From: a virus
Length of the DNA: 25,694 bases
Strand: one strand, 5' to 3'
Virus record (IMG/VR): IMGVR_UViG_3300045912_000927
Span: 1 to 25,694 of that record
Position 1 is the first letter of the stretch. Each line of letters begins with the position of its first letter. Of the stretch, positions 6,433 through 25,694 are shown piece after piece. The notes under the pieces are model-generated. The model worked only from the letters and a program-made list of their open reading frames with translations, ran no database searches and had not been told where the DNA came from. The position numbers were made by a program, and so were the translations under genes.

Positions 6433-6506
6433 GGCCCCGCCGGCGCGTCCCTGATCGGGCTCCCAGCGCGCTCGCGCGCTGGGAGCCCGGGACGGCCGGC
6501 GGGGCC
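6433..6506 (-). terminator. Nested hairpin terminator of the prophage late operon
   Basis: The outer arms 6433-6451 and 6489-6506 pair over 18 bp (12 + 6, with one unpaired G at 6445). On the minus strand the right-to-left transcript leaves the stem into TTTCG, giving a short U-tract just after the last tail gene. The loop holds TGATC plus a second perfect 14-bp hairpin (6457-6488), which belongs to the dispersed palindrome family. With the inner element removed, the outer arms close over a five-base TGATC loop, as expected of an ordinary intrinsic terminator. The site also separates the converging SRAP and tail genes. Confidence 0.75.
6457..6488 (+). repeat. Dispersed palindromic element, copy 1 (intergenic, in terminator loop)
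   Basis: This is a perfect inverted repeat: a 14-bp stem beginning GGGCTCCCAGCGCG, a four-base loop CTCG, and the exact complement. It shares the GGG-NN-CCCA ... TGGG-NN-CCC frame and a central CTCGCGCG with copies 3 and 5 read on the minus strand; it differs from copy 3 at 3 of 32 positions. It lies between the two arms of the operon terminator. Confidence 0.85.
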
Positions 6507-6529
6507 GGAGCGGCGGCGGGAAGCGGCGA

Positions 6530-7810
6530 TCAGGGGAGGCGGAACACGGTGCCGTCGTGGACCACGGTGACGAGCGCGGATGCCGGCAGGTCGCCGGCGG
6601 CGAGATCGACCGTGCCGTCGCCCTTGCGGATGGCGACTGCGCCGAGCCCGTCGACGTTCAGCGTGGCGGCGCCGGTGTTCGCGGCCGCACCGTTGATGAA
6701 GCGGACGGTCAACCCAGCGAAGTACGACCCGAGCGCCGGCGTGAGCCCAACCGTGCGCGCGTTCGCGCTGCCGCCGGCGGCGCCGCCCCAGGTATTCAAC
6801 CCGCGCGCGCCGGCGATCGACGGCGCCTGCTCGGCGGTCGAGACCTCGATGACCTCGATGGCGAAGAAGGTCGCGGCATCGGCGAGCACCGTCGTCGGCG
6901 TACCAAGCCCGGTGCGGTTGACGCGCAGCTCGAAGTAGTCGCCCGGCGAGACCGCGAGCACCGGGGAGATCAGGAAGGCGGCGTTGTCCGTGAAGCCGGT
7001 GCCGCCGACGCGCACCGCCCACATGGCGGTGCCTGGGAAGGCTGGGCTCGGCGTGGCCCCGTTGCGCAGGAACTGCAGATTGATCGCGCCGACGCTGGCG
7101 GCGTCGGGGAAGCGCACCGAACCGTGCAGCCGCACCCGTGTCACACCGGCGGGCACGGTGAGCCGCGTCGGATTGCCGGCGGACCAGAAGGCGTCGGTGT
7201 CGTAGACGGCGGTCTGCCAGGCGGCGATCCAAGGGAATGACAGGCTCGTGGCGTCTGCGGTGCGGCGGAGCAGCGCGCCGCGGAACGGTACGGCCCAGTT
7301 GCCGGCGGAGAGGCCCGGGGTGAAGAATTCGAGGCCGGTCTCGCCGAGGTTCATCCGCACCGGCTTGAGCGACTGGCCGGCATAGGACGAGGGCGTGTCG
7401 TCGAGGTCCCGGAAGTTGGCGGCGCCGCCGCCCCCGCCGCCGCCGCCGATCGGGCGGATGCCGTTCGTGGTGCCGTCCGTGTACACGGTGAGCGCAGCGC
7501 CGGCGGGCACGGCCACGCTGCCCGCGCCACGCGCCACGGTGAGTGCCTCGGCCCCGTCGGCGTTGTCCACGGCGACCTCGCGGCGGATGGCCGGCACGGT
7601 GAGCGTGCGCGGCACGCTGACGCCGACGGCGCGGAAGACCCGATGCCGGCGGTACTGCTCGGCGGTGAGCGCGACGTCACCGGCGGAGAGGTCCACCGTC
7701 AGCACCTCGGTCACGGCGCGGTCGAGCAGATCGACCGCCTGGTTGATGGTGACCTCCTTCTGCGCCTGGGCGGCGGCGAGGTGCGGGACGGCAAGGTTCG
7801 GGCTGGTCAT
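6530..7810 (-). CDS. Tail fibre-like protein with DUF2793-type N-terminus
   Basis: The 426-residue product is the last gene of the late operon and probably forms a receptor-binding fibre or appendage attached to the tail tip. Residues 1-35 (PHLAAAQAQKEVTINQAVDL) match the start of DUF2793 tail proteins. After a beta-rich segment there is an eight-glycine hinge near residue 125, then FRDLDDTPSSYAGQ, a motif recurring in phage fibres. A jelly-roll-like region (about 215-330, with VRLHGSVRFPDAASVGAINL) resembles C1q-type carbohydrate- or protein-binding domains. The C-terminus (VRFINGAAANTGAATLNVDG) is a common fibre repeat module. Its ATG overlaps the stop of the tip protein (ATGA). No chaperone gene follows before the terminator. 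Confidence 0.8.
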   Translation of the reverse strand: MTSPNLAVPHLAAAQAQKEVTINQAVDLLDRAVTEVLTVDLSAGDVALTAEQYRRHRVFRAVGVSVPRTLTVPAIRREVAVDNADGAEALTVARGAGSVAVPAGAALTVYTDGTTNGIRPIGGGGGGGGAANFRDLDDTPSSYAGQSLKPVRMNLGETGLEFFTPGLSAGNWAVPFRGALLRRTADATSLSFPWIAAWQTAVYDTDAFWSAGNPTRLTVPAGVTRVRLHGSVRFPDAASVGAINLQFLRNGATPSPAFPGTAMWAVRVGGTGFTDNAAFLISPVLAVSPGDYFELRVNRTGLGTPTTVLADAATFFAIEVIEVSTAEQAPSIAGARGLNTWGGAAGGSANARTVGLTPALGSYFAGLTVRFINGAAANTGAATLNVDGLGAVAIRKGDGTVDLAAGDLPASALVTVVHDGTVFRLP

Positions 7811-10800
7811 ACGATGGCTGTTCCCCGGCGGCCGCGGCCGACCACGGCGCTGATCTGATGGACGTGCACGCGGACCGGCTCGCCGGGCGTCAGCCCGTCA
7901 TCGGTCTGCTGCGCGGCGGTGTAGGTGACGGTGGGGCTCGCCAGCCCGGCAAAGGTCCGCAGCGTGGCGGTGTCCGCGGCGTCGCGGATGTCCACCTCGT
8001 AGAGCTCGCTCTCCTCGCCAAGCGGGACGGCGCCGGTCAGATCGACGAGCTCGCCGCCGAGACGCGTCCGCCGCACCCAGGTGACGGTGAGGTTGTTTGC
8101 GCCGTCGCGGCTGCCGGCGATGTGCACCGGGGCATAGGGCTGCTCGGCACGGCCGATCATGAGGCGGCGCACCTCGGTCGCGGTCTGGACGGTCTGGAAC
8201 AGGCCGACGAAGCGGAACCGCTCGATGGTGTTGAGCGCGCCGAGCGGCGAGGTGCCGCGCACCGGCACGTCGAGCAGCAGGAACACCGCCCCCGTAGCGA
8301 AGGCGCCCGCGTCCTCGGTGCCGCGCCGGCCGCGCAGCAGGCGGCGGAGCTCGAACCGACCGTCGCCGAGCGGGGTGACGTCGGCGAACTGGATCAGCTC
8401 GACCCGCCCGTCCTCGGCGATCAGCGCGGCGGGATTGGCACCGTTCAGCACCTCGAGCTCGGTCGCGCCCTCGATGCGCTCCGCGCCGGTCTGCATCTGC
8501 ACCGCGAGCACGGTGGCGTTGTCCCAGGTCCAGTACGACCCCGGCGCCGGCACCGCGCCGAGCACCGCGCCCCAGGCGGCCACGTCCAGCACCGCACCGG
8601 CAGGCTCCCACGCCGTGCCGTCGGCCGAGCGGAACACCTCGGCCCGGCGCCAGGTCTGGCCGCGCAGCCCGCCGGCGAGCAGGTAGGAGCGCAGTGCACC
8701 GGCGAGAGCGTCGGCATCGGCGAGCAGCGGCAGGTTGAGCGCGAAGCCGCGCGTGGCATAGGGCGCCGGCAGCGCATCGGGCACGAACCCGGCGCCGCCG
8801 TCCGCGATTGCGACCACTGCGTAATCGCCGGGCGCCTCCTCGACGGCTTCCAGCGCCACGGTCCAGTCGGCACCGAGCTGCGCCGAGATCAGCCGCACGC
8901 GGCTCTGCGATCCGTCACCGCGCACCAGCGTCGCCGGGTCGGTCGGTTCGAGCCGCAGGTGCTGCGTGGTGCCGGCGAAGCCGAAGCGGGTGCGCTCGCG
9001 CCAGGCCGCCAGGATCAGCCGGCGCGCGATCGCCTTGGCCTCTGTCGCGGTGAGCACCAGCGGCAGATCGACCGTCGCCTCCGCCGTGGACGCCATGGTG
9101 GCGGAGGGCGCGCGCGGGCGCTGCCAGCGCTGCGTGCCGATCTCGTAGGCGCGCTCGGGGTCGATGTGACGGACGCTGATCGCGCGCGGAAGCTCGGCGT
9201 CCTGCGCACGCTGCTCGTCGATCACGGGGTTGTCCCCACGCCGGACCAGATCGGCGTGCTGCACGGGCGCGACGGCCCCGCCGCCGCGCGCGCGGAAGAC
9301 CAGCACGTCGTCGCGCTCGACCGCGTCGAAGGCGTAGGCGGTGGCGAGCGGCTCGATCGCCTGGCGCGCCGGCATCGGCCGGGCGACCACGAAGCCGCGC
9401 ACGCTGTCGGTCAGCCCGGCGACGTTGATGTCCGGGGCCGCGAGCCCGGCGCGCTGGCAGAGCGCGGCGACGATCGAGGCGAGCGGCACGGTGTCGCTGC
9501 CCTGCCGCAGCACCAGCAGCCGCCGATAGACCCCGCCGGGGCCCGCGTAGAACGCGGCCTTGATGTCCGAGTCCCAGGCGAAGGCGGCATTGGTGGGCAT
9601 GGTCGAGGTCGCGGCGGTCTGCACGGTCGCGCCGGTGCGCGTATCGAGCACGATGACCTGGTTCGCGCCGGTGCTGTGGATCGCCCAGGTGCCGCCGAAG
9701 GCGCGCTTGCTGCCCGATCGCGCCGCGGAGAGGAAACTCGGGACGTATCGCTGCCAGGCGATCGAGCCGTCCGCGCGCAGCTTGGAGATCGCGGTCTCGC
9801 CGGGCGAGTTGGGCGATACGGCGAGGATCAGCGCGTTGTCGTCGGGGTCGTGGTCGAAGGCGACGGCGGTGAGCGGACTGGTGCCGGTCAGACCGAGCGC
9901 GGCATTGGTGTAGGTGGCGACCAGGGACGCCCACACGCCGGCGATCTGCTGCCCGCCGGTCGCGCCATGGGTGGGCACGATCCGCCAGAGCTCGATGCCA
10001 CCGCCGGCGACCGGCGCGGCATACCAGATGTCGGAGGCGCCCTCGCGCTCCTCGCCCGCCGCCAGCCAGCCGTTCGCCGGCGCCTCCATGATCCGCTCGT
10101 CGCCGGTATCGGACGAGCCGAACACGTAGGTCATGGTGTCGGCGTCGATGCCGTAGACCGCCGCCGGGCTGGCTTGCGGCGGGGTGAGGAAGAACCGCCG
10201 CCAGCCGAACGGCCCGAGCACGCGGGCGACCAGGCAGTCACCGCGCAGCGGCACACGGAAGCGGGTGCGGGTGGTGGTGAAGGCCGAGGTCGTGGACTCG
10301 AACGATCCGAGCAGCGCGCCGGTGTCGAGATCGTACTTCCGCAGCCAGACGTCGCCGGTCGGCCCGTGCACGACGTAGACCTTGCCGTCCTGCGTGGCGA
10401 TCGCGTGCGCGAACTGCGCCAGGCTGGGGCCGAAGGCGCGCCGCGCCTCCATCGTCAGCGTGTTCACCGCGGCGAGGAAGCGCTGCGTCGCATCGTGCGG
10501 CTCGGTGCCGAGCAGCAGCACGGTGGCGCGTTCGAAGTCCGTCGTGGAGAGCGTGCCGGAATAGGCGGACGCCGGCGGCAGCGATACGGTCTGCTCGATC
10601 GTGGACTGCCCGCCGGACGCGACGACCTCCGCGCTCACCGAGGGAATGCGGTTGCCGAAGGCGTCGAGCGGCACGTCCTCGAACACCAGGTAGCAGAGGC
10701 CGCGATGCGCGACCGCGTTCGCCGCGCCGACGCTCGCCTCGATCAGCGGGTCGGGGAACTGGCTCTCGTCGCCGGGATGGAAGCGCCAGCGCAGGCCGGG

Positions 10801-11253: not shown

Positions 11254-11254
11254 G

Positions 11255-12726: not shown

Positions 12727-13343
12727 AACCGCACCTCGATGACGGGGATGTCCGCCCACTGGCCCTGGAAGAAGTTGTCCAGCGTCAGGCCCAGATCGTC
12801 GGCGTCGAAGCGGACCGGCACGTCGAACTCGCACTGCGCTTCGACCGCATGGCCGACCACGCTGCGCAAGGACGAACCGAGTGTGATCGTGCCGGTGACG
12901 GTGTTCACCTGGAACTGGCTCGCGCCCGTCCCCTCGCTGCGCTCAATGCCGTCGGTCCAGCAGCGCACCGTGCCGGCCACGGGAAGCTGGATCACGCGCG
13001 CCTGGCTCGCCGGGCCGGACGTGTAGCTGCGCACGATCTGGAACGTCGCCGTCGTGCCGTCCGTCGTGCCGATCTGCTGACGCGGCATGGCGAAGTCCGA
13101 CCAGTCCTTGAAGCGGAAGGCAAAGGCGCGACCGCGCCGGGCGCGGAAGAACGCGATCAGGGACGTGAGGTCCTCGCGCGTCTTCAGCCCGCTGCCGACG
13201 TTCCAGCGCCCGCGCGAGGCGGACCAGTTCTGGTTGCGCCGCTCGTGCCCGCCGGCGGTCGTCACCACGTTGGTGGACCACAGCGGCCCGCCGGTCGCGC
13301 CGAGCGCGATCTTGTCGGGGAAGCGCACGTCGTGGAACGCCAT
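12723..13343 (-). CDS. DUF2460 distal tail protein
   Basis: The 206-residue product begins MAFHDVRFPDKIALGATGGP and contains NWSASRGRWNVGSGLKTRED, LIAFFRARRGRAFAFRFKDW and VQCEFDVPVRFD-like segments characteristic of DUF2460. In the gene transfer agent this family (gp12) forms the distal tail ring joining the tube to the hub, and its length of about 200-210 residues agrees. It sits directly after the tape measure gene; its ATG shares one base with that gene's stop (TGATG), which fixes the start. The last residues IPVIEVRL are the usual family ending. Confidence 0.92.
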   Translation of the reverse strand: MAFHDVRFPDKIALGATGGPLWSTNVVTTAGGHERRNQNWSASRGRWNVGSGLKTREDLTSLIAFFRARRGRAFAFRFKDWSDFAMPRQQIGTTDGTTATFQIVRSYTSGPASQARVIQLPVAGTVRCWTDGIERSEGTGASQFQVNTVTGTITLGSSLRSVVGHAVEAQCEFDVPVRFDADDLGLTLDNFFQGQWADIPVIEVRL

Positions 13344-15586
13344 CAGAGGCTCCGCTGCGCGCGCTGGAGCCCGCGCGCCATCGCCGCGGTGATCTGCGCC
13401 TGCGACGCGCGGAAGCTGTCCGCGTCGGCGGCGGTGACGTTCATGATCACGGTCGGCGGGCTCCCATCGAACGGAGTTCGATGGGGACCCGCGCCGCCGA
13501 GCGCGCGCTGCGCATCGCGCTTCGGCACCACCACCTCGCCGCGCTGGAGGATCGCCGGGTACTCGTCGGGCCGGAACCAACCGTCATGCAGCCGCGGCGC
13601 GCCGGTGAAGGCGAGCGCGGGCACGCGCCGCATCGGCACGGCGCTCGCACCGACCTCGCCGCCCTCGTGGAACAGGCCCGCCAGGAACGAGCCGATGCCG
13701 GAGAAGATGCCGCCGATCCCGCCGCCGGAGATCCCGCCCAAGGCCGAGTTGAACAGCGCCAGCAGCGGCTCGGTGACCAGCTTGCGCGTGCCGAGCCGGA
13801 GAAGATCCTGCTCGATGCCCTTCAGCACATCGCCGAAGCTCTTTCCGCGCACGATCGCGCCCTCGAATGCGCTCTCGAAGGTGAGCCCGAGCTGGCGCGC
13901 GACGTCATCGACCTCGGCGGTCTTCTGCTCGGCGCGGCTGAGCTCGTCGAGTAGGGTCTGCGCACGCCGGCCGATGATCGCGTCGGCCTCCGTCGCACCG
14001 AAGCGGCCTTCGAGCACGGGGCGGAGCTCGCCCAGGCGTTCGAGCGCGGCGACGTAGCGTTCCAGCGGCGTGCGGGTCTCCTCATAGAGCCGCCCCGCCT
14101 CCTGAAGCGCCGTGTTCTCGGCACGCCGCGCCTCCTGAAGATCGAACAGCGCGTTCGCCAGACGCTCGGCCTCCGCGCGTTGGACTCCACTGACGCCCGC
14201 GATCCGCTCGGCGACGAAGCGCTCGCGCTCGTCGGCCAGCCCGGCAAGCTCGACCTGCCGGCGGAGTGCGTCGATGCGGCGTTCCTCGGCGCCGACTGCC
14301 GTGGCGGTGGTGCGTGTGAGCCGCTGCAACGCCTCGTCGCGGGCGCGCAGCGCATCGGTATCGAGACGCTGCCGCTCGGCCGGATCGACCGCCCCGGCCT
14401 CGGCCGCACGGCGGATGCGGTCGAGCCGCTCCTGGTACTCGCGCTCGATCCGCACACGCGCATCGAAGGTCTCGCGCAGCCCGGCGATATCCTCGGCCGC
14501 ACGCTGACGGCGGAGCTCCGCCTCGTTCGCGCCGGCGCGCGTGCGGCCCTCGACGATCTCGCGCGCGCGCTCCTCGAACTGCGCGTTGCGCTGACGCAGC
14601 GCTTCCAGCCGCTGGTCGATCTCCGCGAGCTCGCGGTCGATCTCCTGGACGGTGACGCGCAACGGACTGGCAAGACCGCGTTCCTCCAAGGCGCGCCGCG
14701 TCGCGTCCTGGGAGAAGACCACCCCGCCGCCGGCCTCGCGCGCCCGCAAGAGGTCGGCCCGCCGCGCTTCCAGCCGCCCGATCTGCTCTGAGACCGGCAC
14801 GCCGAAGGCGACGCGGCCGATCTGGTCGGCGATCGCGCCGAGCGCCGGAGCGACGCTGGCCAGGAGGTTGGTCGCCAGCGTCGAGAACGCACTGTTCAGC
14901 TTGGCGATGCGATCGGAGGCCTGGTCGGCGCGCGCGATCAGCTCCGCATCCGCGATCTGGCCGAACCGCAGCGCCTCGGCGGTGAGCCGTTCCAGTCCCT
15001 CGCGCCCCTGGGCGAGGAAGGGAATGAGTCGCTGGCCGAGCCGGTCGCCGAACACCTCGGTGGCGATGCGCGCCCGCTCGGCGGGGCTTTCGACCGCGGC
15101 GATGCGGTCGGCGATGTCCGCGAGCACGCCCTCGGTTGCGCGCGCATTGCCGGAAGCATCCAGGAACGCGACGCCGATGCGGCGGAAGGCTTCCTCCGCC
15201 TGCCGCCCGCCGGTCGCGGCATCGCCGATGCGGCGCGTCAGCGCCGCAAGGCCGCGGTCCAGCTCCTCGTTGCGCAGCCCGACCTCGACCGCGGCGAAGC
15301 GGAACGCCTGCAAGGCATCGGTGGACACGCCGACCTGATCGGCGAGTTCGCCCAGCCCGCCCACCGCATCGACCGCGCGGCGGGCGAAGTTGGCGAGTGC
15401 GCCGACCGAGAGCGCGCCAAGGCCGATGCCGAGCAGGTTGAGCGCGGATGACGCGCGCTGCGCCCCGCCGACGATCCGCGCAAGCGCCTGGTCGCCGGCC
15501 TCGCCGGTACGCGTCAGTTCCTGACGTGCCTGCTGCGCGCCGTCCACCGACAGCCGAACCGAGAGCCGGCGCGTCGCGTCAGTCAT
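13343..15586 (-). CDS. Tail tape measure protein (lambda gpH-like)
   Basis: The 747-residue protein sets tail length and is expelled with DNA. An N-terminal helical lead (RLSVRLSVDGAQQARQEL) precedes a hydrophobic stretch near 50-65, a tape-measure core (FGDRLGQRLIPFLAQGREGL), and long charged coiled coils (about 270-520). The C-terminal lambda-type region is FESAFEGAIVRGKSFGDVLK, then LALFNSALGG and a glycine-rich hydrophobic segment. The end (FHEGGEVGASAVPMRRVPAL, then EYPAILQRGEVVVPK) is common in this class. Start ATG 15586 has GGAGG seven bases upstream. Near residue 700 the gene carries an in-frame copy of the dispersed palindrome (13458-13490), read as AGPHRTPFDGSP. The gene overlaps the T reading frame by eight bases. 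Confidence 0.93.
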   Translation of the reverse strand: MTDATRRLSVRLSVDGAQQARQELTRTGEAGDQALARIVGGAQRASSALNLLGIGLGALSVGALANFARRAVDAVGGLGELADQVGVSTDALQAFRFAAVEVGLRNEELDRGLAALTRRIGDAATGGRQAEEAFRRIGVAFLDASGNARATEGVLADIADRIAAVESPAERARIATEVFGDRLGQRLIPFLAQGREGLERLTAEALRFGQIADAELIARADQASDRIAKLNSAFSTLATNLLASVAPALGAIADQIGRVAFGVPVSEQIGRLEARRADLLRAREAGGGVVFSQDATRRALEERGLASPLRVTVQEIDRELAEIDQRLEALRQRNAQFEERAREIVEGRTRAGANEAELRRQRAAEDIAGLRETFDARVRIEREYQERLDRIRRAAEAGAVDPAERQRLDTDALRARDEALQRLTRTTATAVGAEERRIDALRRQVELAGLADERERFVAERIAGVSGVQRAEAERLANALFDLQEARRAENTALQEAGRLYEETRTPLERYVAALERLGELRPVLEGRFGATEADAIIGRRAQTLLDELSRAEQKTAEVDDVARQLGLTFESAFEGAIVRGKSFGDVLKGIEQDLLRLGTRKLVTEPLLALFNSALGGISGGGIGGIFSGIGSFLAGLFHEGGEVGASAVPMRRVPALAFTGAPRLHDGWFRPDEYPAILQRGEVVVPKRDAQRALGGAGPHRTPFDGSPPTVIMNVTAADADSFRASQAQITAAMARGLQRAQRSL
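13458..13490 (-). repeat. Dispersed palindromic element, copy 2 (in tape measure gene)
   Basis: Two perfect 10-bp arms (CCCATCGAAC and GTTCGATGGG) close over a three-base loop and are flanked by GGG and CCC. It is identical at 31 of 33 positions to copy 4 in the protease/scaffold gene and encodes nearly the same peptide (HRTPFDGSP against HRTLFDGSP), in two unrelated proteins. Confidence 0.85.
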
Positions 15587-15893
15587 GCGCAGGCCTCCGC
15601 GATGCGAGCCCCTCGTGCCAGCCGTGGCGCAGTGCGCTGAGCAGCGTCACGGCGAGCGGGGGAGGCACGCCGAGGCTCTCGGTGATGCGCAGCGCGGCCG
15701 GCAGATCGAGCTCCGGCCCGGCGAAGCCCGAGCCGATGCAGAGCATCGCCGCTTGCCAGCATGCGGCCCCTTCGATCGTGGTCGGTGCGTTGGCCGCGTA
15801 GGGACACACCGGGCCGCACTCGCGCTCGGTCGCCGCGCAGCCGCGGCAGTACTCCGGCCCGCCGCCGCCATGCCAGGCGGCGCGGGCCTTCAG
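15579..15893 (-). CDS. Tail assembly chaperone T region, made as GT fusion by -1 frameshift
   Basis: This reading frame overlaps the end of the G gene in the -1 frame and has no ATG, GTG or TTG start of its own near its beginning. It encodes about 105 residues: WHGGGGPEYCRGC, then ERECGPVCPYAANAPTTIEG and ITESLGVPPPLAVTLLSALR. By analogy with lambda G/GT it should be produced as the C-terminal extension of G through slippage at GGGAAAC (15896-15902), giving a 229-residue fusion. In lambda the T part recruits the tail tube subunit to the tape measure. An unusual trait is a CX2C-X6-CX3C cluster that could bind zinc. A CTG at 15893 in a CTGA overlap is a possible independent start, but frameshifting explains the arrangement better. 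Confidence 0.82.
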   Translation of the reverse strand: MKARAAWHGGGGPEYCRGCAATERECGPVCPYAANAPTTIEGAACWQAAMLCIGSGFAGPELDLPAALRITESLGVPPPLAVTLLSALRHGWHEGLASRRPAHD

Positions 15894-15902: not shown

Positions 15903-16267
15903 TCCGCCTCCGCGGGGTCCGGCCGGCCGATCACCGCGTCCCAGATCGCGACCGCCATATCGTCGCGCTCCATCAGCGCATCGAGCGCCGCCGGCGAGAA
16001 CGCGAGCGGCGCACCGTCGCGGTCGCCCACACCCTCCCAGGCGGTGACGATGCGGCGCGCGATCAGCCGCACCAGCAGCATGAAATAGAGGCCGTTGAAG
16101 ACGCCGCGCTCCTTCTGCGCGGCCTCGCCGAGCAGCGCCTTCGCCTCGGCGAGTGCGGCACCCTCCGCCGCCGCGCGCGTGATCCGATCCAGCGGCTGCG
16201 CCAGCAGCCGCACGCCCTGCGGCAGGTCGAGCCAGCGAGGTTCGCGGGGGATGTCGAGAGTGAGCAT
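15890..16267 (-). CDS. Tail assembly chaperone G (lambda gpG-like)
   Basis: The 125-residue zero-frame product starts MLTLDIPREPRWLDLPQGVR with GGAGG seven bases upstream. It is mostly helical (AAEGAALAEAKALLGEAAQK, NGLYFMLLVRLIARRIVTAW) and ends in the acidic stretch DPAEAEGNG at the slippery site. In tailed phages G binds the tape measure protein and keeps it soluble before tube polymerisation; it is absent from the mature virion. Sequence similarity to known G proteins is weak by eye. The call rests on position between tube and tape measure, length, and the frameshift signal at its 3' end. The gene begins 71 bp from the divergent antitoxin gene. Confidence 0.85.
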   Translation of the reverse strand: MLTLDIPREPRWLDLPQGVRLLAQPLDRITRAAAEGAALAEAKALLGEAAQKERGVFNGLYFMLLVRLIARRIVTAWEGVGDRDGAPLAFSPAALDALMERDDMAVAIWDAVIGRPDPAEAEGNG

Positions 16268-16295
16268 GGGTACCTCCGGTCTTGAAACTGCGTGG

Positions 16296-16321
16296 CGGTA
16301 TGTCAAAGTCTGACATGACCG
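16296..16321 (+). promoter_or_regulatory. Inverted repeat, probable ParD operator
   Basis: The arms CGGT-ATGTCA and TGACAT-(G)-ACCG pair over 10 bp around a five-base AAGTC centre, with one unpaired base in the right arm. The repeat ends 17 bp before the antitoxin ATG and lies between the divergent G and parD-like genes. ParD antitoxins usually repress their own promoter through ribbon-helix-helix binding to such repeats. A TTGAAA at 16282-16287 could be a -35 element, but no convincing -10 is seen. Confidence 0.55.
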
Positions 16322-16338
16322 AGTCACAGGAGGTCGGG

Positions 16339-16611
16339 ATGCCGAACGTCAGCCTGACGCCCGAGCTCGAAGGCTTCGCCGAGCAGTGCGTAGCCTCGGG
16401 GCGCTACGGCAATGTCAGCGAGGTGATGCGCGCGGCCCTGCGCCTGCTGCAGGAGCAGGAGGCCAAGCGGGAGGCCTTCACACGGATGCTGGAAGCGGCG
16501 GAGCGTGAGGGCGACGAGCGCGGCTGGTTCGAGATCGACCAGGTCGCCGAGGAGATGGATGCGATCATCGCCGAGGCCGAGGTGAAGCGGAGCCGGGAGA
16601 CGGCACGCTGA
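16339..16611 (+). CDS. ParD-like ribbon-helix-helix antitoxin
   Basis: The 90-residue product begins MPNVSLTPELEGFAEQCVAS, then GRYGNVSEVMRAALRLLQEQ. This is the ribbon-helix-helix fold and signature of ParD (type II) antitoxins, where the N-terminal half binds operator DNA and the acidic C-terminal tail wraps the toxin. The tail here (EAFTRMLEAAEREGDERGWF, EEMDAIIAEAEVKR) fits. AGGAGG precedes ATG 16339 at normal spacing, so it is preferred over the upstream in-frame ATGs. The gene lies on the strand opposite to all prophage genes around it and is followed with a four-base overlap by its probable toxin. It is a moron-like insertion between tail genes. Confidence 0.92.
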   Translation: MPNVSLTPELEGFAEQCVASGRYGNVSEVMRAALRLLQEQEAKREAFTRMLEAAEREGDERGWFEIDQVAEEMDAIIAEAEVKRSRETAR

Positions 16612-16940
16612 GCTCGGCGCATGAGCGCCCGGCGATCCTCTCTCCACGGGCGCGGCGGGATCTTGCAGAGGCTGCCGCCTACATCGCCGGCGACAACCCC
16701 GCTGCCGCACGCCGTCTGCGGGAGGAGGTCGTGGCGGCTGCGGTCCGGATCGGCCAGTACCCGCTGATCGGCTCGGTGCGCCCTGTGCTTGCGCCCGAGA
16801 GTGTTCGGTTCCTGATCGTGACGGGCTTTCCCTACGTCATTGTCTATCGCAGCACGGTGACGCCGCCGCGGATCCTGCGCGTCCTGCATGGCGCGCGGGA
16901 TCTGCCGGATGCGCTGCGTGGCGTGTCTGGCGAACGCTGA
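16608..16940 (+). CDS. ParE-like toxin (RelE/ParE superfamily), probable CTG start
   Basis: The protein reads ILSPRARRDLAEAAAYIAGD, NPAAARRLREEVVAAAVRIG, SVRFLIVTGFPYVIVYR and PRILRVLHGARDLPDAL. This is the full ParE pattern: N-terminal helical hairpin, antiparallel sheet, terminal HGARD. ParE toxins generally inhibit DNA gyrase. No ATG, GTG or TTG lies in this frame from about 16551 to the GTG at 16731, and that late start would remove the helical hairpin. CTG 16608 overlaps the antitoxin stop as CTGA and has GGGAGA seven bases upstream, giving 110 residues, near the usual 95-105. The start is inferred from this context. Its 3' end is three bases from the converging tail tube stop. Confidence 0.87.
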   Translation: MSSAHERPAILSPRARRDLAEAAAYIAGDNPAAARRLREEVVAAAVRIGQYPLIGSVRPVLAPESVRFLIVTGFPYVIVYRSTVTPPRILRVLHGARDLPDALRGVSGER

Positions 16941-16943
16941 CGC

Positions 16944-19195: not shown

Positions 19196-19429
19196 TCAGC
19201 CGCGCCGCGCGCCCTGGGTCAGCTGGGCGAAGGTATCCGCGCCGAGCAGCACGATGAACGACATCACCACCGAGGCCAGCGCCATGATGATCAGCGCCTT
19301 CAAGAGCCAGTCCATGCGGGTGTCGATCAGGTGCCGGATCGCGCGCATCTCCTCCTTGGTCTCGCGATAGCGCTCGGCGCAGTCGCGCTCGTGCCGCTCC
19401 AGCCGTGCCAGCGCATCCATCTCAGTCAT
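19196..19429 (-). CDS. Small coiled-coil protein with C-terminal membrane span
   Basis: The 77 residues begin MTEMDALARLERHERDCAER, continue as a charged amphipathic helix (YRETKEEMRAIRHLIDTRMD), then a single span (WLLKALIIMALASVVMSFIV) and a short polar tail. This topology, a charged helix followed by one C-terminal span, resembles XhlA-type haemolysin/holin-accessory proteins, so a role in lysis is possible but not demonstrated. ATG 19429 overlaps the stop of the lipoprotein gene by four bases (ATGA), so the two are co-translated. The stop is four bases before the DUF6441 start. Confidence 0.7.
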   Translation of the reverse strand: MTEMDALARLERHERDCAERYRETKEEMRAIRHLIDTRMDWLLKALIIMALASVVMSFIVLLGADTFAQLTQGARRG

Positions 19430-19632
19430 CGGGCGCAGAGCTCGTGGATGAGCGCGGTCTGAGCGGCGACCTGGCGCAGCGTCTCGGCGGTGTCGCGCGG
19501 GCTCGGCAGGATCGGCTGGATCTCGGCGCAGAGATCGCGCGGGAACAGCGCGTCCCAGAGGTCGGACGAGCACCCGCCGGCCAGCAGCAGCACGACCGCG
19601 AGCATGCTGGTCCGACCAAGGAGACGGCTCAT
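19426..19632 (-). CDS. Small prophage lipoprotein
   Basis: The 68-residue product has a short basic start, a hydrophobic core (MLAVVLLLAGG) and a cysteine in the context LAGGCSSD, consistent with a signal peptidase II site, so the mature protein of about 47 residues should be membrane-anchored. The mature part has two more cysteines (DLCAEI, HELCAR) and one short helix. Size and paired cysteines recall outer-membrane spanins (Rz1), but it lacks their proline richness. ATG 19632 overlaps the upstream stop by four bases, which decides the start over an ATG nine codons upstream. It is followed, with overlap, by the coiled-coil membrane protein. Confidence 0.7.
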   Translation of the reverse strand: MSRLLGRTSMLAVVLLLAGGCSSDLWDALFPRDLCAEIQPILPSPRDTAETLRQVAAQTALIHELCAR

Positions 19633-19976
19633 GGCTCTCTCCGGCAGTAGACGCGCCACGCCACGCCGATCGCCGGGACCCCAGCGCGCGAGCGCGCTGG
19701 GAACCCGTCGCGCTCGGCGTGCGTGACGATCAGCACGTCAGGGCCAACGGTAACGCTGTCGCCCGCGGCGAGGTCGGGAACGTCCGCGACCGCGACGGTG
19801 AGCACGTCGGTGGCCTGGATCACGGCGACGTCGAAGGCGGACGCCACCCGATCGGGCGACGACCGCACCACGCGCACGGGTACTGGCTCCCCGGTTCCGC
19901 CCTGGCGCCACGCCGCATCCACCCCGACGTGCGGGTCGGCGAGGATGTCGCCGAGCGCCGCGGCGAAGACGTCCAC
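19629..19976 (-). CDS. Probable head-tail joining protein (lambda gpFII position)
   Basis: The 115-residue protein begins MDVFAAALGDILADPHVGVD, contains AAWRQGGTGEPVPVRVVRSS and ATDVLTVAVADVPDLAAGDS, and ends in a strand (AIGVAWRVYCRREP). This resembles gpFII-type connector proteins, small beta-barrels that bind the portal end of the filled head and receive the tail. The position one base after the major capsid gene agrees with lambda E-FI-FII. Near its end the gene carries an in-frame palindrome copy (19675-19706), read as GFPARSRAGVP. It falls between two strands, where homologues usually have a short turn. Family call is by order and pattern, so moderate. Confidence 0.72.
   Translation of the reverse strand: MDVFAAALGDILADPHVGVDAAWRQGGTGEPVPVRVVRSSPDRVASAFDVAVIQATDVLTVAVADVPDLAAGDSVTVGPDVLIVTHAERDGFPARSRAGVPAIGVAWRVYCRREP
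19675..19706 (-). repeat. Dispersed palindromic element, copy 3 (in head-tail joiner gene)
   Basis: The element is 32 bp, with outer GGG/CCC and ten consecutive inner pairs from CCCAGCGCGC around a two-base centre, broken only by two mismatches after the outer GGG. Read on the minus strand it matches copy 1 at 29 of 32 positions, including the central CTCGCGCG. It is read in frame as GFPARSRAGVP. Confidence 0.85.
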
Positions 19977-19977
19977 C

Positions 19978-21000: not shown

Positions 21001-21074
21001 CGGTCGGACTCCTTCGGGTAGAGACGAAGACGGCGCCACGAGGGCGCCGCGTCGAACGAGCGTGTGGGGCGGGA

Positions 21075-21464
21075 TCAGGCGGTGTCGCGCGGGACGATGC
21101 CGGCGGCGCTGAGTTCGGCGTGCTTGGCGGCGATCTCGGCGGGCTGATCGACCGAGGGGTCGAAGACGAGCGCATCCTTCGAGACGATCGCCGGCCCGCG
21201 GACGACCACCAGCCCGCGGCGATCGCCGGCGGTCGCATCGACCGCCTCGATCAGCACCGCGACCGCGGTCTCCGCCCCTTCATCGCCCGTGACCGTGGCC
21301 GCCGGCGAGAAGCGGAACACACCGGTGGCCGTGATCTTCCCGAGCACGGCACCGAGCGGATAGTTGGTGCCGCCCTTCAGCGTCACGACCTCGCGGCTGT
21401 AGTTGCCATTGAGCTCGTACTTCAGCAGGTCGCCGAGGGTCGGCGCCATCACCAGAACGGACAT
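21075..21464 (-). CDS. Head decoration protein (lambda gpD family)
   Basis: At 129 residues this is slightly longer than lambda gpD (110). The N-terminus (LLKYELNGNYSREVVTLKGG, then NYPLGAVLGKITATGVFRF) and the middle ETAVAVLIEAVDATAGDRRG with VVRGPAIVSKDALVF are clear family features. The trimeric protein binds the three-fold sites of the expanded capsid and stabilises it against DNA pressure. ATG 21464 has AGGAG upstream. The C-terminus adds a short helix (EIAAKHAELSAAGIVPRDTA) as in many bacterial prophage versions. It lies between protease/scaffold and capsid genes, as in lambda C-D-E. Confidence 0.93.
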   Translation of the reverse strand: MSVLVMAPTLGDLLKYELNGNYSREVVTLKGGTNYPLGAVLGKITATGVFRFSPAATVTGDEGAETAVAVLIEAVDATAGDRRGLVVVRGPAIVSKDALVFDPSVDQPAEIAAKHAELSAAGIVPRDTA

Positions 21465-21479
21465 GGGTCGGTCTCCTGG

Positions 21480-21893
21480 TCAGTGCTGCGCGGCCGCGGC
21501 GCGCGCGCGTGCGCGGCGGACGATCGGGCTTTCCGGGCTCCCATCGAACAGAGTTCGATGGAGACCCGCGTCGCTGCTGCCCGGCTTGGGTGCGGCGGCG
21601 ATCACGGCGCTCGCTTCGGCGCGCGCGGCGAGGGTGTCGAGGACCGAGCGGCGCAGCGCGTGGGCGGCGACGCCGCGGCGGATCGCGTCCGCCGCATCGA
21701 CCGTGACGCCGAGCCGCGCGGCCTGCGCCGCGACCTCGGCGATCTCCGCGGCGGCAGCGCGCGCGGCGTCGTCCGGTGGTGCCGGCGCAGGCTCCGGCGG
21801 CGTGACCTCGCGAGGCTGCGGCGGATCATTCTGCTGCGCCTCTTCGGGGATGTCCTCCCGGCGCGCATCGTCGGTCGGGGTCTGCTCAGTCAT
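21480..21893 (-). CDS. Nested scaffold protein (lambda Nu3-like internal start)
   Basis: Inside the protease gene and in the same frame, Met300 (ATG 21893) is preceded by AGGAG seven bases away, a strong ribosome binding site in the middle of a coding region. The 137-residue product (TEQTPTDDARREDIPEEAQQ, then helical EIAEVAAQAARLGVTVDAAD and HALRRSVLDTLAARAEASAV) has the acidic, disordered start and helical end typical of scaffolds. Lambda Nu3 arises exactly this way from gene C. The scaffold directs capsid protein assembly and is removed by the protease. A further in-frame ATG (residue 273) has no comparable ribosome binding site. Confidence 0.82.
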   Translation of the reverse strand: MTEQTPTDDARREDIPEEAQQNDPPQPREVTPPEPAPAPPDDAARAAAAEIAEVAAQAARLGVTVDAADAIRRGVAAHALRRSVLDTLAARAEASAVIAAAPKPGSSDAGLHRTLFDGSPESPIVRRARARAAAAQH

Positions 21894-22790
21894 GGTGGTT
21901 CTCCTGATGGCTCCGGGCGTGGCGACGCCACGTGCGCCGCGCCGGCTCGGCGGCAATGCGAGTGCGGTAGTCATGTGACCTCTGGTCGCCTTCATCTCCG
22001 CGAGTGCGGTCTCGACGGTGCCGATGCGGTCGGCGAGACCCATCGCGATGCCCGCGCGGCCGCGATAGATCGCCGCTTCCGTGCCGCGCACCGCCTCGGG
22101 CGCCAGGTTGCGGTTGCGCGCGACCAGGGCGACGAGCTCGCCGTACAGCGCGTCGACGTCCGCCTGGACCGCCGCACGCGCGGGATCCGACAGCGGCTCG
22201 TGGGGATTGCCGTCGAGCTTGCGTGCGCCCGCGTGGATGAAGGTCCAGGCGAGCCCGGCCTTGGCATCGGCGCCGCTCTGGTCGATGTGCGCGGCCACCA
22301 CGCCGATCGAGCCGACCTCGCCGGTCCGGGTGACGTAGATCCGCTCCGCCGCACTGGCGATCGCGTAGGCCGCCGAGGTCGCGCTCTCGCTCGCCACCGC
22401 CCAGAGCGGCTTGGCAACACTCTGGCGGAGAGCGCCCAACCGATCGACGAGATCGAACATCCCGGCGACCTCGCCGCCGGGGGAGTCGATCTCCATCACC
22501 ACGCCGCGCACCGACGGATCGGCCAGTGCGGCCGCGACCGCGTCGCCGACCTCGCCGTACACGGACGCGCCGAACAGCTCCGTCAGCCAGTCGCCACGCG
22601 CGACCAGCGGACCCAGCACCGGCACCACCGCGATACCGGCGTCGGTCACCGCGTAGCCGCGGCCGCGCGTCGCAATCTCTCCGGGAGGAGCGAGCGCCAC
22701 ACGGCTCGCGGCGAGCAGCGTTTCCAGCGCGCGCGACGCGATCGCCAACGGCCGGCTGGTGAGCCGGAGCAGTGCAGCCTCGATGCTCAT
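21480..22790 (-). CDS. Prohead protease, S49 family (lambda gpC-like), fused to scaffold region
   Basis: The 436-residue protein is an SppA-type serine protease that matures the prohead and degrades the scaffold. The protease part (about 50-270) shows VRGVVMEIDSPGGEVAGMFD, the nucleophile region SATSAAYAIASAAERIY with Ser139, EVGSIGVVAAHIDQSG and the base region ARKLDGNPHEPLSD with Lys191, the Ser-Lys dyad of family S49. Residues 300-436 are acidic, Pro/Ala-rich and helical, and correspond to the nested scaffold. The start ATG 22790 has AGGA six bases upstream and is nine bases after the portal stop. An in-frame palindrome copy (21535-21567) near the C-terminus is read as AGLHRTLFDGSP. Confidence 0.93.
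   Translation of the reverse strand: MSIEAALLRLTSRPLAIASRALETLLAASRVALAPPGEIATRGRGYAVTDAGIAVVPVLGPLVARGDWLTELFGASVYGEVGDAVAAALADPSVRGVVMEIDSPGGEVAGMFDLVDRLGALRQSVAKPLWAVASESATSAAYAIASAAERIYVTRTGEVGSIGVVAAHIDQSGADAKAGLAWTFIHAGARKLDGNPHEPLSDPARAAVQADVDALYGELVALVARNRNLAPEAVRGTEAAIYRGRAGIAMGLADRIGTVETALAEMKATRGHMTTALALPPSRRGARGVATPGAIRRTTMTEQTPTDDARREDIPEEAQQNDPPQPREVTPPEPAPAPPDDAARAAAAEIAEVAAQAARLGVTVDAADAIRRGVAAHALRRSVLDTLAARAEASAVIAAAPKPGSSDAGLHRTLFDGSPESPIVRRARARAAAAQH
21535..21567 (-). repeat. Dispersed palindromic element, copy 4 (in protease/scaffold gene)
   Basis: This 33-bp copy differs from copy 2 at only two positions, one in the loop and one in the stem (breaking one pair). Arms CCCATCGAAC and GTTCGATGG remain paired. 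It lies about 8 kb from copy 2 in an unrelated gene, in the same reading phase and orientation. Confidence 0.85.
21901..21905 (-). promoter_or_regulatory. Internal ribosome binding site for the scaffold
   Basis: On the minus strand this reads AGGAG, seven bases before ATG 21893, within the protease coding sequence. The neighbouring in-frame ATG at residue 273 lacks such a site. It decides the scaffold start. Confidence 0.75.
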
Positions 22791-22799
22791 TGCTGGTCC

Positions 22800-24272
22800 T
22801 CAGGCCGGCGCCGCGGCCGTTTCGTCTTCCGCGGGAGCGGCGCCATCATCAGACGGCGACCCGCTCGGCGCACTCCCGAACACCAACCCAAGCTGCCGCT
22901 CGCGCGCACGGTCGGCGGCGATCTCGGCATCGACCTGCTCGGCGTCGTAGCCGCGCTCGGCGAGCGCCTGGGTGCGGCTCTTCAGCCCAGCCTCGATCTG
23001 CTCGATCTCCGCGCGCGCGTCCTTCAGCGGATCCACCCAGTCCCAGCGCGGCGGCAGCCAGGCACAGGCGAGATAGCCGCGCCGGTTCCGCTCGTAGTCG
23101 GGGAGCGGCAGCGCTCCGCTCAGCACAGCCACGTCCATCCAGCGCGCCCAGACGCGCCGGCAGATCTGCCACACCATCACCGCGTGCTGGTACGCCTCGA
23201 TGCGGCGGCGGAACTCCAACAGCGCCAGGCGCGAGTTCGAGTAGTTCGCCTTCAGCATGTCGTTGGAGAGATAGGCGTAGGGAATGCCCAAAGCCGCCGA
23301 GACCTGAAGCAGCGTGCGGTACTGGAACGGCTCGTAGGTCTGGCCGACGTCGGCCGGGGCCGAGGTCTGGATCTCCTCCCCAGGCTCCAGCATCACCACC
23401 TGGCCCGGCTGCAGGTCCATGGTCCGCTCGCCGTCCGCGCCCTCGTCCTCGGCGGCGTCGAACGGCTCCGCCGGGGCCGGAGTGGTGATGAACAGCGCAT
23501 GCATCGCCGCGACCTTCTTCCGGTCGAGCTCGGCGTCGTCGTACTGGTCGAGCAGGAACAGCTTCACGATCCCCGGGGCGAAGCGGGAGATGCCGCGCAG
23601 CTGGCCGGCATCCACCGGGTCGATCACGTGGATCACCTCCGCGGCCGGCACGCGCACGGTCTCGCCGGTGAGGCCGGGATCGGTCACGTCGCCCGGATGG
23701 CGGCGCAGGAAGTGGTACGCGACGCGGCGACCGATGCGGTCGAACTCGATGCCCTGGCGGATCACGTTGCCATTGGCCGCCCGCTCGTTGCGGTGCAGCG
23801 GCAGCATCTCCGAGGGCAGCATCTGGATCTGCAGCGGCACGGCGAGCCCGTCCTCGGGGCGACGCGGGCGGAAGCGCAGGAACACCTCGCCGGCGATGAA
23901 CACCTCGCGCGCGGCACGGCGCTGCTGGCCGTAGAAGTCGGTGAAGCCCTCGGCATCGCTCTCGTCGGTCCAATCGAGCCAGAGCCGCTGCACGGTCGCC
24001 TTGAGCGCGCTGTCGGTGATCAGGGACGACGGCTTGATGCCGTTGCCGACCACGTTGCCGGCCCAGGACTCGATGGCGTTTGCCGCATAGCCGTTGTTGC
24101 GCACCAGCCAGCGGGCGCGGGCGGTGATGTCTGCGCCGGCGGCGGCGATCAGGGTGTTGAGATGCGCCCGGCTCGGCTGGAAGTGGCGCAGCCGGCGACT
24201 CGCCTCGCCCGCCTCGAACCCGCCGAGCAGCGCGCCGACGCGCCGGCGCAGGCGCGAGAGAGTGGCCAGCAT
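22800..24272 (-). CDS. Portal protein (lambda gpB family)
   Basis: The 490-residue protein forms the dodecameric portal through which DNA is packaged and to which the connector binds. It belongs to the lambda-type portal family: ARWLVRNNGYAANAIESWAG, NVVGNGIKPSS, YGQQRRAAREVFIAGEVFLR, EVIHVIDPVDAGQLRGISRF, LNDMLKANYSNSRLALLEFR-like YLSNDMLKANYSNSRLALLE, and YQHAVMVWQICRRVWARWMD. Length is close to lambda gpB (533). The C-terminal tail (RARERQLGLVFGSAPSG) is acidic and Ala-rich at the end. ATG 24272 lies six bases after the gpW-like gene; no strong Shine-Dalgarno is visible, which suggests coupling. Confidence 0.94.
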   Translation of the reverse strand: MLATLSRLRRRVGALLGGFEAGEASRRLRHFQPSRAHLNTLIAAAGADITARARWLVRNNGYAANAIESWAGNVVGNGIKPSSLITDSALKATVQRLWLDWTDESDAEGFTDFYGQQRRAAREVFIAGEVFLRFRPRRPEDGLAVPLQIQMLPSEMLPLHRNERAANGNVIRQGIEFDRIGRRVAYHFLRRHPGDVTDPGLTGETVRVPAAEVIHVIDPVDAGQLRGISRFAPGIVKLFLLDQYDDAELDRKKVAAMHALFITTPAPAEPFDAAEDEGADGERTMDLQPGQVVMLEPGEEIQTSAPADVGQTYEPFQYRTLLQVSAALGIPYAYLSNDMLKANYSNSRLALLEFRRRIEAYQHAVMVWQICRRVWARWMDVAVLSGALPLPDYERNRRGYLACAWLPPRWDWVDPLKDARAEIEQIEAGLKSRTQALAERGYDAEQVDAEIAADRARERQLGLVFGSAPSGSPSDDGAAPAEDETAAAPA

Positions 24273-24278
24273 CCGGAC

Positions 24279-24491
24279 CTACAGCCCCTTGCTCGCCGCG
24301 GTGCGGACGATGCGGCGCCGCGCGCCCGCGGAGGCGTCGGCGATCCGGCGCTCAAGGTCGGCGATCGCCGCGGCCATCTCGGCGTCGGTGGCGTATGTGA
24401 TGCGCCGTCCGTCGATATCGACCGTGCGCACGCCGCGCCAGCGCGCCTCGAGCAGCGCATCACGCCGCGCCGTCATCTGCTCGATCGTCAC
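24279..24491 (-). CDS. Head-tail joining protein (gpW-like)
   Basis: The 70-residue protein, starting GTG 24491 with GAGG seven bases upstream, matches the gpW family in size, order (terminase-W-portal) and pattern: RDALLEARWRGVRTVDIDGR, ITYATDAEMAAAIADLERRI. The strand pair around VDIDGRRITY and the two flanking helices are the gpW fold. In lambda gpW binds the filled head and is needed for connector completion. The last residues (RRRIVRTAASKGL) are basic. The start is nine bases after the terminase stop. Confidence 0.88.
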   Translation of the reverse strand: MTIEQMTARRDALLEARWRGVRTVDIDGRRITYATDAEMAAAIADLERRIADASAGARRRIVRTAASKGL

Positions 24492-24500
24492 AACACCACC

Positions 24501-25694
24501 TCAGCGCAGGTAGGACGGGGTGAACACGCGCCGGCCGCGCAGCAGACGACGACGGAGGACGCCGGCAGAGGGTGGCGGCGCATCGCCCACATCCGGTTGG
24601 TGCGACGTCACTGGTGCAGGCACGTCATCATCACCGCTGGGCGCGACCGGGTGCCCATCGCGCGAGCAGGATGGGAACCCGACCTGCGCCTCGAGATCGC
24701 GCCAGGTCGCCTCGGTCCAGCGATCCGCGCCGGCGATCCAGGCCGCGGCGCGGGCATAGACGCGGCAGTCCAGCACCTCGTTGCGCTCCCTCAGCTTCTG
24801 CCACTCGAGCCGGGCGAAGCCGCGCTTCGTGCGCACGCTCACCAGCTGCTCGGCCACCAGCTGCTTCACCCACTCCGCCTCCATGCCGCGCGGCAGGTGG
24901 ACGTAGCCGGCGGGGTATGGGGTCCCAGCCGCGATCTCCTCGTCGGTGGGGCGGCTGAGCCGCAGGAAGCGATAGGTCTCGCTCTTGAACGTGGCGACGG
25001 CGACGGTCCAGAGCCGCGCACCACGACGCAGCTTGCGCCCGCCCTCGGTGACATCGACGTAGCTCGGACCCGCGATCGGCGCGGCACGGTTGAACCCGTC
25101 CACCCCCTTCACAGGCACCACCTGGGCATGCCCGGCTCGGCGCGCCCAGGCATACACCGCGGGCGCCTCGTAGCCGGTGTCGATCGCGAGCTTGGCGAGG
25201 CCAAGCCGCGCCCCGCTCGCATGCACCCACGTGCGGCCGAGCAGCGCGGTCAGGCTCGCCCACGTCCCCGCATGCTCCGGGCCGCCGTCGATCACCACAT
25301 GGTCGAGGAACCAGCTCTCGAGGCCACGCCCCCAGGCCCAGATCGAGACCTCGATCCGATCCCGCTGCACGTCCGCCCCGGCAGTCAGGAACAGCGCGCC
25401 AACCGGCACCGTGCCGATCGCCCAGTCCTCGCGGCGCTCATAGAGCCGCTGCCAGTCCGGCGCGTCGCCGCGCTCCTGCCAGGTCTCGCCCAGCACCGTG
25501 TTCCTGAACGTCTTCAGATCCTCGGGCTTGCCCTGCGCGGCCTCCCAATCGCGCGCGATCTGCTCCCAGGACAGCCACCCGACCGGGGAGTAGAGCGCCG
25601 AGATGTGGAAGCCGACCGTGTGCGGATCCTCAGCCACGGCGGTCGCGCGCCACTCGCCGCGCGCGAGCATCGCCGTCTTGTGGTGCTCCTCGAC
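24501..25694 (-). CDS. Terminase large subunit (lambda GpA family), C-terminal part
   Basis: The frame is open to the right edge, so this is the C-terminal about 397 residues of a protein normally of 600-700; the packaging ATPase domain lies outside. The visible part begins in the linker (HHKTAMLARGEWRAT, VGFHISALYSPVGWLSWEQI) and continues into the nuclease domain: FLTAGADVQRDRIEVSIWAW with the catalytic Asp, LAKLAIDTGYEAPAVYAWAR with the second Asp, and DCRVYARAAAWI near its end. The enzyme cuts concatemeric phage DNA and drives packaging. The tail after about 25 kb-1 kb is low-complexity and carries an in-frame palindrome copy (24649-24680), read as GFPSCSRDGHP. The stop TGA-equivalent lies at 24501-24503. 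Confidence 0.93.
   Translation of the reverse strand, partial: VEEHHKTAMLARGEWRATAVAEDPHTVGFHISALYSPVGWLSWEQIARDWEAAQGKPEDLKTFRNTVLGETWQERGDAPDWQRLYERREDWAIGTVPVGALFLTAGADVQRDRIEVSIWAWGRGLESWFLDHVVIDGGPEHAGTWASLTALLGRTWVHASGARLGLAKLAIDTGYEAPAVYAWARRAGHAQVVPVKGVDGFNRAAPIAGPSYVDVTEGGRKLRRGARLWTVAVATFKSETYRFLRLSRPTDEEIAAGTPYPAGYVHLPRGMEAEWVKQLVAEQLVSVRTKRGFARLEWQKLRERNEVLDCRVYARAAAWIAGADRWTEATWRDLEAQVGFPSCSRDGHPVAPSGDDDVPAPVTSHQPDVGDAPPPSAGVLRRRLLRGRRVFTPSYLR
24649..24680 (-). repeat. Dispersed palindromic element, copy 5 (in terminase gene)
   Basis: This 32-bp copy keeps the GGG-NN-CCCAT ... ATGGG-NN-CCC frame and the central CTCGCGCG (minus strand). It is the most decayed copy, with three mismatched pairs in the stem. 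It is read in the same phase as copy 3 and gives the similar peptide GFPSCSRDGHP. Confidence 0.75.

Follow-up and report, generated by a model that had tools for sequence, protein, structure and literature searches.

The question raised by the virus record IMGVR_UViG_3300045912_000927 is whether a palindrome of little more than 30 nt, which recurs within phage structural genes, is a mobile element that coding sequences tolerate. The window, i.e., the whole stretch of 25,694 nt that was analysed, is a 25.7-kb virus record with 71% GC whose close relatives are Elioraea prophages. A preliminary description of this DNA reported five palindromes, four of them in frame in morphogenesis genes and one intergenic, and regarded them as copies of a mobile or spreading palindrome tolerated in coding sequence. 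All five were located at their coordinates (copies 1 to 5, Table 1), the four in-frame positions were confirmed, and copy 1 is the intergenic one. The interpretation is likewise supported by alleles with and without the palindrome, by a nested copy and by insertions in unrelated genes (seryl-tRNA synthetase and Mutator-family transposases): the palindromes represent a new family, though of a known kind, namely short mobile palindromes that coding sequence tolerates. As judged by comparing sequences, the units have been inserted, have spread, have lost pairing in old copies, have nested, follow a frame rule and are carried by prophages. It is likely that they form a family of non-autonomous mobile hairpins of very small size, prophages being one of the carriers.

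A common frame in the five palindromes

The frame GGGNNCCCA...TGGGNNCCC is matched exactly by four of the five copies; the common frame GGG-NN-CCCA...TGGG-NN-CCC of the preliminary description therefore stands for these four and fails in copy 4, which has TGGAG for TGGGG. All five copies are preceded by C and followed by G, extending the unit to CGGG...CCCG. A division into two subtypes, one with a CTCGCGCG centre in copies 1, 3 and 5 and one with ATCGAAC/GTTCGAT arms in copies 2 and 4, was partly right, as the CTCGCGCG centre is reverse-complemented in copy 3 and imperfect in copy 5. The window has 12 clusters of palindromes with 13-nt arms, and six third-order Markov sequences have 5, 7, 12, 12, 8 and 8; the shared frame pattern gives four matches per strand versus none for a reversed control pattern. 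Palindromy alone is not rare in this 71% GC window; the common frame is. The ATCGAAC core, with up to three mismatches, is matched twice in the window against 0.00 expected (100 shuffles).

That 13-nt-arm palindromes are not rare in the window would fit a local origin by template switching at replication forks, the palindromes resembling one another only as GC-rich hairpins. This explanation is contradicted by the shared ends: the same ends and the CCCATCG arms recur at unrelated sites and in unrelated genomes, and the motif has 217 matches versus one for the reversed motif, in loci mostly chosen for holding copies. Local template switching is thus extremely improbable as the origin of the family.

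Presence and absence of the unit among relatives

An exact pattern scan of genome contigs yielded five stretches, two of which lie in Elioraea sp. Yellowstone (G001) and Elioraea tepidiphila DSM 17972 (G002). Related viral contigs were gathered by scans with the tape measure and terminase proteins, the best 80 being taken from the terminase scan. Among the alignment rows, L144 and L159 are one contig, as are L146 and L160, and the sequence of L164 is the G001 prophage (all 21-mers in common). Filled and empty alleles exist for all five window copies; the prophage pairs concerned are mostly 82-95% identical in DNA, and the palindromes align as clean insertions.

Copy 1 is also filled in L144 and G001 and is empty in L147 and L008. 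At copy 2, a 12-residue block is missing in the homologues L143-L147, and the net difference is 33 or 36 nt depending on the relative. Copies 3 and 4 are filled in the window only. Relative to 11 rows (8 distinct records), copy 3 makes a difference of exactly 33 nt, with 11 residues missing in the G001 and G002 proteins; copy 4 accounts for an exact 36-nt difference from 11 of the 22 comparable rows (10 distinct records), with 12 residues missing in the proteins of the same two prophages. Among the remaining 11 rows at the copy 4 site, ten are also without the unit, with differences of 30-33 nt, and in L173 the site contains a 21-nt stretch unrelated to it. L144, L156 and L158 have another small palindrome here (CCGAT, about 5 nt, ATCGG). 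Copy 5 is missing in G001 and present in L144, L152 and L155. In G002 and L009, a second unit is nested inside the copy 5 unit and adds 36 nt, and in L146 and L161 a stretch of the same length has lost most of its pairing.

Further sites are empty in the window and filled in relatives. A 36-nt insertion in the nuclease domain of the terminase is found in four rows, the site being empty in 31 rows including the window (30 distinct records), and L008 has a 36-nt insertion, with the frame kept, in the gene preceding the tape measure gene. Genomes G094 and G133 carry an in-frame unit at the same phage-gene position as L147, a sign of transfer by phage. Individual sites might be accounted for by deletion, though hardly those filled in one record alone. 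Both comparisons proposed in the preliminary description went in its favour: the inserted peptides of copies 2 to 4 (blocks of 11-12 residues missing in related prophages) and of copy 5 (missing in G001) are not conserved in homologues, and a covariance model found further copies in the genomes of Elioraea and other Acetobacteraceae.

The reading frame

The palindromes at the allele sites are 32-35 nt long, yet the net insertion at 13 gene-borne sites is 33, 36 or 39 nt. The reading frame is kept at all 13 sites, and 11 to 13 residues are added. These sites comprise the internal terminase site, the nested copy, copies 2, 3 and 4, a second site in the S49 gene of G002, three sites further up in the G001/G002 prophages, the L008 and L147 sites, a transposase gene of G002 and the seryl-tRNA synthetase gene. 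A frame-breaking insertion was seen directly in G053 only, where a 37-nt unit insertion (L051, 1501-1534) breaks the frame of a Mutator/IS256-type transposase. This 37-nt frameshift ties the frame rule to selection, and the simplest reading is that the insertion process itself does not count in threes and that selection does. Copies 2 to 5 all lie toward the C-terminal ends of their proteins, where an insert is most easily tolerated.

Two other copies decide nothing on the frame rule. One is the intergenic copy 1 (35/36 nt), and the other is a copy of L142 ahead of the capsid gene (35-42 nt), which measures 35 nt against L144 and 40-42 nt against several other records, so that its exact length is unsure.

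Distribution of the family

A covariance model was built from 15 copies; the E thresholds and filters differ between the searches made with it. As the whole-genome searches score only the best 18 to 150 candidates per genome, copy numbers and carrier counts are lower bounds. With E up to 0.01, the model was positive in 4 of the 7 genomes from the genus; for the Acetobacteraceae the figure was 28 of 200 sampled genomes (E up to 1e-4), and for the class it was 2 of 385 (E up to 1e-5). One of these two is G002, and in the family of the other, 4 of 119 genomes were positive, that carrier included. Outside the Acetobacteraceae the family is sporadic; units occur on five Methylobacterium/Methylorubrum plasmid records, and all four that were tested with the model were confirmed (L276-L279 are among the copies). 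Matches in Exiguobacterium and Flavobacteriales, as well as L007, were taken as unrelated, since the GGG-NN-CCC boxes are missing. A search with the Methylorubrum unit also returned ten E. coli plasmids, one Sphingobium record and one archaeal record at E values of 0.3-0.9, which were taken as chance matches. Phage records gave no match at E 0.1 when searched with one typed unit.

Host genes are also affected. The seryl-tRNA synthetase (PF02403, PF00587) has a 12-residue insert in G002 and G006 that is missing in the 19 other loci aligned, and a Mutator-family transposase of G002 carries an in-frame copy. In the E. tepidiphila genome (4.3 Mb), 15 sites lie outside the prophage at E up to 0.01, again a lower bound. 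The window has 5 copies in 25.7 kb, compared with none above the control in 400 kb of E. tepidiphila DNA, where the two matches of the density scanner equal those of the reversed control. The scanner recovers three of the five window copies, so that the densities are lower bounds, and the absence in 400 kb is no contradiction, since 15 sites in 4.3 Mb correspond to about 1.4 expected in 400 kb.

This high density in the prophage, relative to the rest of the genome, would suit functional phage sites kept by selection, such as operators, packaging sites, recombination sites or RNA hairpins. Nevertheless, most positions are not common to prophages that are 82-95% identical, some copies have lost their pairing, the stem sequence varies freely while pairing is retained, and copies lie in seryl-tRNA synthetase and transposase genes. 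A set of functional phage sites is therefore very unlikely.

Anatomy of the unit

About 100 distinct copies of the palindrome family were read. The unit can be written as C-GGG-N1-2-CCC-[stem]-[short loop]-[stem]-GGG-N1-2-CCC-G and is mostly 33-36 nt long, with inner arms that are mostly CCCATCG. The outer bases are nearly constant, C preceding the unit in 52 of 56 sites and G following it in 52 of 56. Covariation was assessed in 47 distinct sequences, all with spacers of 2 nt and with boxes 16-19 nt apart; here and in later counts, scan matches with fewer than six matching box letters were excluded, and window copies 4 and 5 were added by hand. Stem positions 9-14 are paired in 43-47 of the 47 copies, with up to three pair types. 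The covariation at positions 10-14 was equalled by 0 of 2000 shuffles and that at position 9 by 4 of 2000. Thus the paired changes first noticed between the window subtypes hold across the family.

The spacers behave in the opposite way. The two spacer positions are Watson-Crick paired in 6 and 5 of the 47 copies versus 15 and 20 expected, and at most 3 of 2000 shuffles were as low. As the spacers pair below chance while the stem covaries, the hairpin retains a small internal loop. The spacers are drawn from few words, the pairs {AC,TT} occurring in 17 of 85 copies versus 5.3 expected and {CT,TC} in 11 of 85 versus 2.6 expected; a fixed polarity of the unit is possible. No match at the gathering score was obtained in Rfam with eight sources (147,962 bases).

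Two longer repeats were observed around the unit. In G065/G140 (L044, L045, L088, L089), the unit often stands beside CCCTCTGGC-like arms within a longer repeated hairpin, and in G098 (L090-L105), it stands within another longer repeat with TTGCGAGCA-like flanks.

Target sites and a possible mechanism

For the flank test, 56 of 100 sites were kept; a stricter set comprised 23 sites, an initial set had been cleared of six scan matches judged to be non-members, and end repeats were counted over 48 sites. Target duplication of at least 3 nt beyond chance was not found (3 nt in 0/48, 4 nt in 1/48 and 5 nt in 0/48 sites). The flanks of a copy pair with each other better than swapped flanks do, with a mean of -24.0 versus -20.7 and none of 200 swaps as low. 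The hairpin that holds copy 1 in its loop has the strongest flank pairing among the 56 distinct sites (-49.4), and L008 has similar hairpin arms without the copy 1 unit. The Y1 transposase family PF01797 was found in 1 of the 24 genomes searched, which is 1 of 11 carriers (G098); 5 of 14 control genomes were positive. Of the occurrences of the half-site CGGGN1-2CCCATCG, 194 fall inside full units and 23 elsewhere (some being counted repeatedly where loci overlap); all but about three of the latter are decayed, nested or truncated units. Neither a half-site pair bracketing a gene nor an insertion sequence with matching ends was found in the 2.19 Mb of loci scanned (not whole genomes).

These data bear on the idea that the unit is a short miniature inverted-repeat transposable element (MITE), i.e., the ends of a DDE transposon from the same genomes that has lost its middle. 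Inverted ends and the near-constant outer C and G agree with this idea, and a transposase acting in trans would account for the spread. On the other hand, a MITE origin is rather unlikely given that target duplications of at least 3 nt do not exceed chance and that no half-site pair was seen to bracket a gene in the loci scanned, together with the concentration of half-sites inside units.

For the mobile hairpin, the following route is taken to be the most likely. The unit would move as a single-stranded hairpin, and its mispaired spacers, forming the internal loop, would assist its recognition by a protein acting in trans. It may then be joined into single-stranded or hairpin target DNA. Selection would remove insertions that break the frame, while the surviving ones would add a short peptide, and persistence of the unit would require no benefit to the host.

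Several points weigh against a mobile hairpin of this kind. No enzyme that moves the unit was identified by the PF01797 search of 24 genomes and the half-site scan of 2.19 Mb, and movement appears only through traces between lineages. End repeats of 2 nt occur in 8 of 48 sites versus 3.5 expected (reached in 18 of 1000 shuffles), so that a 2-nt duplication is possible. Strong flank pairing is seen at few sites, 3 of 56 lying beyond the 1% level, and the hairpin-target step is thus a tendency. Overall, the two ends carry the same spacer about as often as expected (9 of 85 versus 10.8 expected), so that a fixed polarity is at best possible, and the covariation and spacer-pair shuffles ignore the relatedness of the copies. 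The units inside the longer repeats of G065/G140 and G098 may have spread by another route. Intergenic copy 1, whose net difference is 35 nt from L008 but 36 nt from L147, gives no help in separating insertion from selection.

The window and its relatives

The positions of the five copies, the neighbours of copy 1 and two empty sites are collected in Table 1.

Table 1. Copies of the palindromic unit, empty sites and adjoining features in the window
Feature	Position	Gene or place (strand)	Description	Encoded peptide
Copy 1 (W1)	6456..6489	intergenic	perfect palindrome, AGCGCGC stem, CGGG...CCCG	
Copy 1 neighbour	5705-6400	SRAP gene (+)	convergent with the tail gene	
Copy 1 neighbour	6530-7810	tail gene (-)	convergent with the SRAP gene	
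GC-rich hairpin	6433..6506	between convergent genes	arms 6433-6451 and 6489-6506, copy 1 in loop, no T run	
Copy 2 (W2)	13457..13491	tape measure gene, 13343-15586 (-)	ATCGAAC stem, in frame	GPHRTPFDGSP
Empty site	15596..15597	last codons of gene preceding tape measure gene	filled in frame in L008	
Copy 3 (W3)	19674..19707	head-tail attachment gene, 19629-19976 (-)	AGCGCGC stem, in frame	GFPARSRAGVP
Copy 4 (W4)	21534..21568	near end of S49 protease/scaffold gene, 21480-22790 (-)	ATCGAAC stem, in frame	GLHRTLFDGSP
Copy 5 (W5)	24648..24681	terminase large subunit, 24501-25670 (-), past nuclease domain	imperfect, in frame	GFPSCSRDGHP
Empty site	25273..25274	terminase, within nuclease domain near residue 132	filled in G001 (= L164), G002 and L009	

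The name of the tape measure protein rests on a PF10145 match just below the cut-off, and the product of the S49 gene is presumably a scaffold, a label drawn from gene order and an internal start, without a family match. A structure prediction of the terminase with its insert had a mean predicted local distance difference test score (pLDDT) of 46, too low for use, and supports nothing. The head and upper tail proteins of the G001 and G002 prophages are 63-99% identical to those of the window, whereas their tape measure protein is only 31-35% identical. For the lower tail and accessory genes of the window, no match was found within the G001/G002 stretches compared. A search of phage records with a 2.8-kb capsid stretch gave distant relatives only (24 records at 60-80% identity).

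Other features of the window were observed in passing. A ParD/ParE toxin-antitoxin pair (PF03693, PF05016) lies at 16267-16943 on the opposite strand within the tail gene block, and this 677-nt stretch is missing from the homologous contig L008. An orfA-like transposase (HTH_Tnp_1), which we take to be IS3-type, stands at the left edge of the record (1-477). Genes for a RecD2 helicase, an SNase-domain protein and an SRAP protein are clustered beside the structural block (888-6400).

Comparison with known systems

The preliminary description compared the palindromes with Rickettsia palindromic elements (RPEs). In the available part of PMC10969869, RPEs are described as elements of about 150 bp inserted in frame in protein genes, and in the available part of PMC3733652, those of R. 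conorii are said to end in CGTC. The common feature is that palindromic repeats occupy in-frame positions within unrelated protein genes of an alphaproteobacterium, and in-frame placement is found here as well. By contrast, the unit of the present family is mostly 33-36 nt long (net 33-39 nt in genes), has no conserved tag and counts phages among its carriers. Because RPEs measure about 150 bp, the likeness holds for behaviour and not for membership.

Repetitive extragenic palindromic (REP) sequences are closer in size. According to the portions of PMC3733652 that are available, REPs are hairpins of 20-40 bp, for which intragenic copies and insertion inside other palindromes have been described. 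In the same portions of this survey (Di Nocera et al. 2013, PMC3733652), CGTC-type REPs are without a known dedicated transposase, predominate in alphaproteobacteria and are reported missing from Acetobacteraceae; their CGTC end is unpaired, their stems of 8-9 bp begin with A-T, their loops span 4-5 nt and most have a CCA tail. GTAG-type REPs and the hairpins of the REP doublet (REPIN) model are proposed, in the available text of PMC3116915 and PMC3733652, to be spread by a REP-associated tyrosine transposase (RAYT) acting in trans.

The present family might thus be a REP family, either of the GTAG type moved by a RAYT or of the CGTC type known from other alphaproteobacteria and Rickettsia. 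The similar size, the hairpin form, the mostly alphaproteobacterial occurrence, the intragenic copies, the insertion in palindromes and, for the CGTC type, the lack of a known transposase as far as the cited survey describes it, are all in accord with this possibility. Nonetheless, C-GTC stands directly at either end in 19 of 69 sites, so that this tag is not conserved, and 3 of 69 sites have GTAG/CTAC no more than 8 nt from an end. The stems, loops and CCA tail of the CGTC type differ from the unit described here, which starts with a GGG/CCC clamp followed by a 1-2 nt, mostly mispaired spacer and mostly CCCATCG arms, and CGTC REPs are, in the survey text at hand, the ones missing from Acetobacteraceae. 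In contrast to the GTAG tag and RAYT of REPs and REPINs, no conserved tag is found, and a Y1 gene is present in one carrier (G098), although a trans-acting enzyme is proposed in both cases. Membership in either REP type is accordingly quite unlikely.

The small dispersed repeats of filamentous cyanobacteria, studied by Elhai and colleagues, are said to be very small (21-27 nt), mobile and without a known enzyme. The likeness to the present unit lies in the very small size, the mobility and the lack of a known enzyme, the difference in the length and the cyanobacterial hosts.

No published account of this palindrome family was found in the open-access literature, which omits most subscription journals. 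How transposase-less hairpin repeats spread in bacteria is left open in the available text of the 2013 survey of CGTC REPs (PMC3733652). The present family offers unusually clean material in this respect, with single genes found both filled and empty, a frame rule in which selection is visible, a nested copy, decaying copies and a type-strain host, Elioraea tepidiphila DSM 17972. In-frame insertion of a mobile element into needed phage and host genes is a source of new protein segments, with phages as one vehicle.

Beside the known systems, the family is a distinct variant by its size, mispaired spacers, phage carriage and nesting. Tentatively, it may go further than a variant: a hairpin of 33-36 nt, recognised through its internal loop without a terminal tag, placed in single-stranded or hairpin DNA by a still unknown enzyme and carried between bacteria in phage structural genes, might constitute a separate minimal class next to REPs, RPEs and MITEs.

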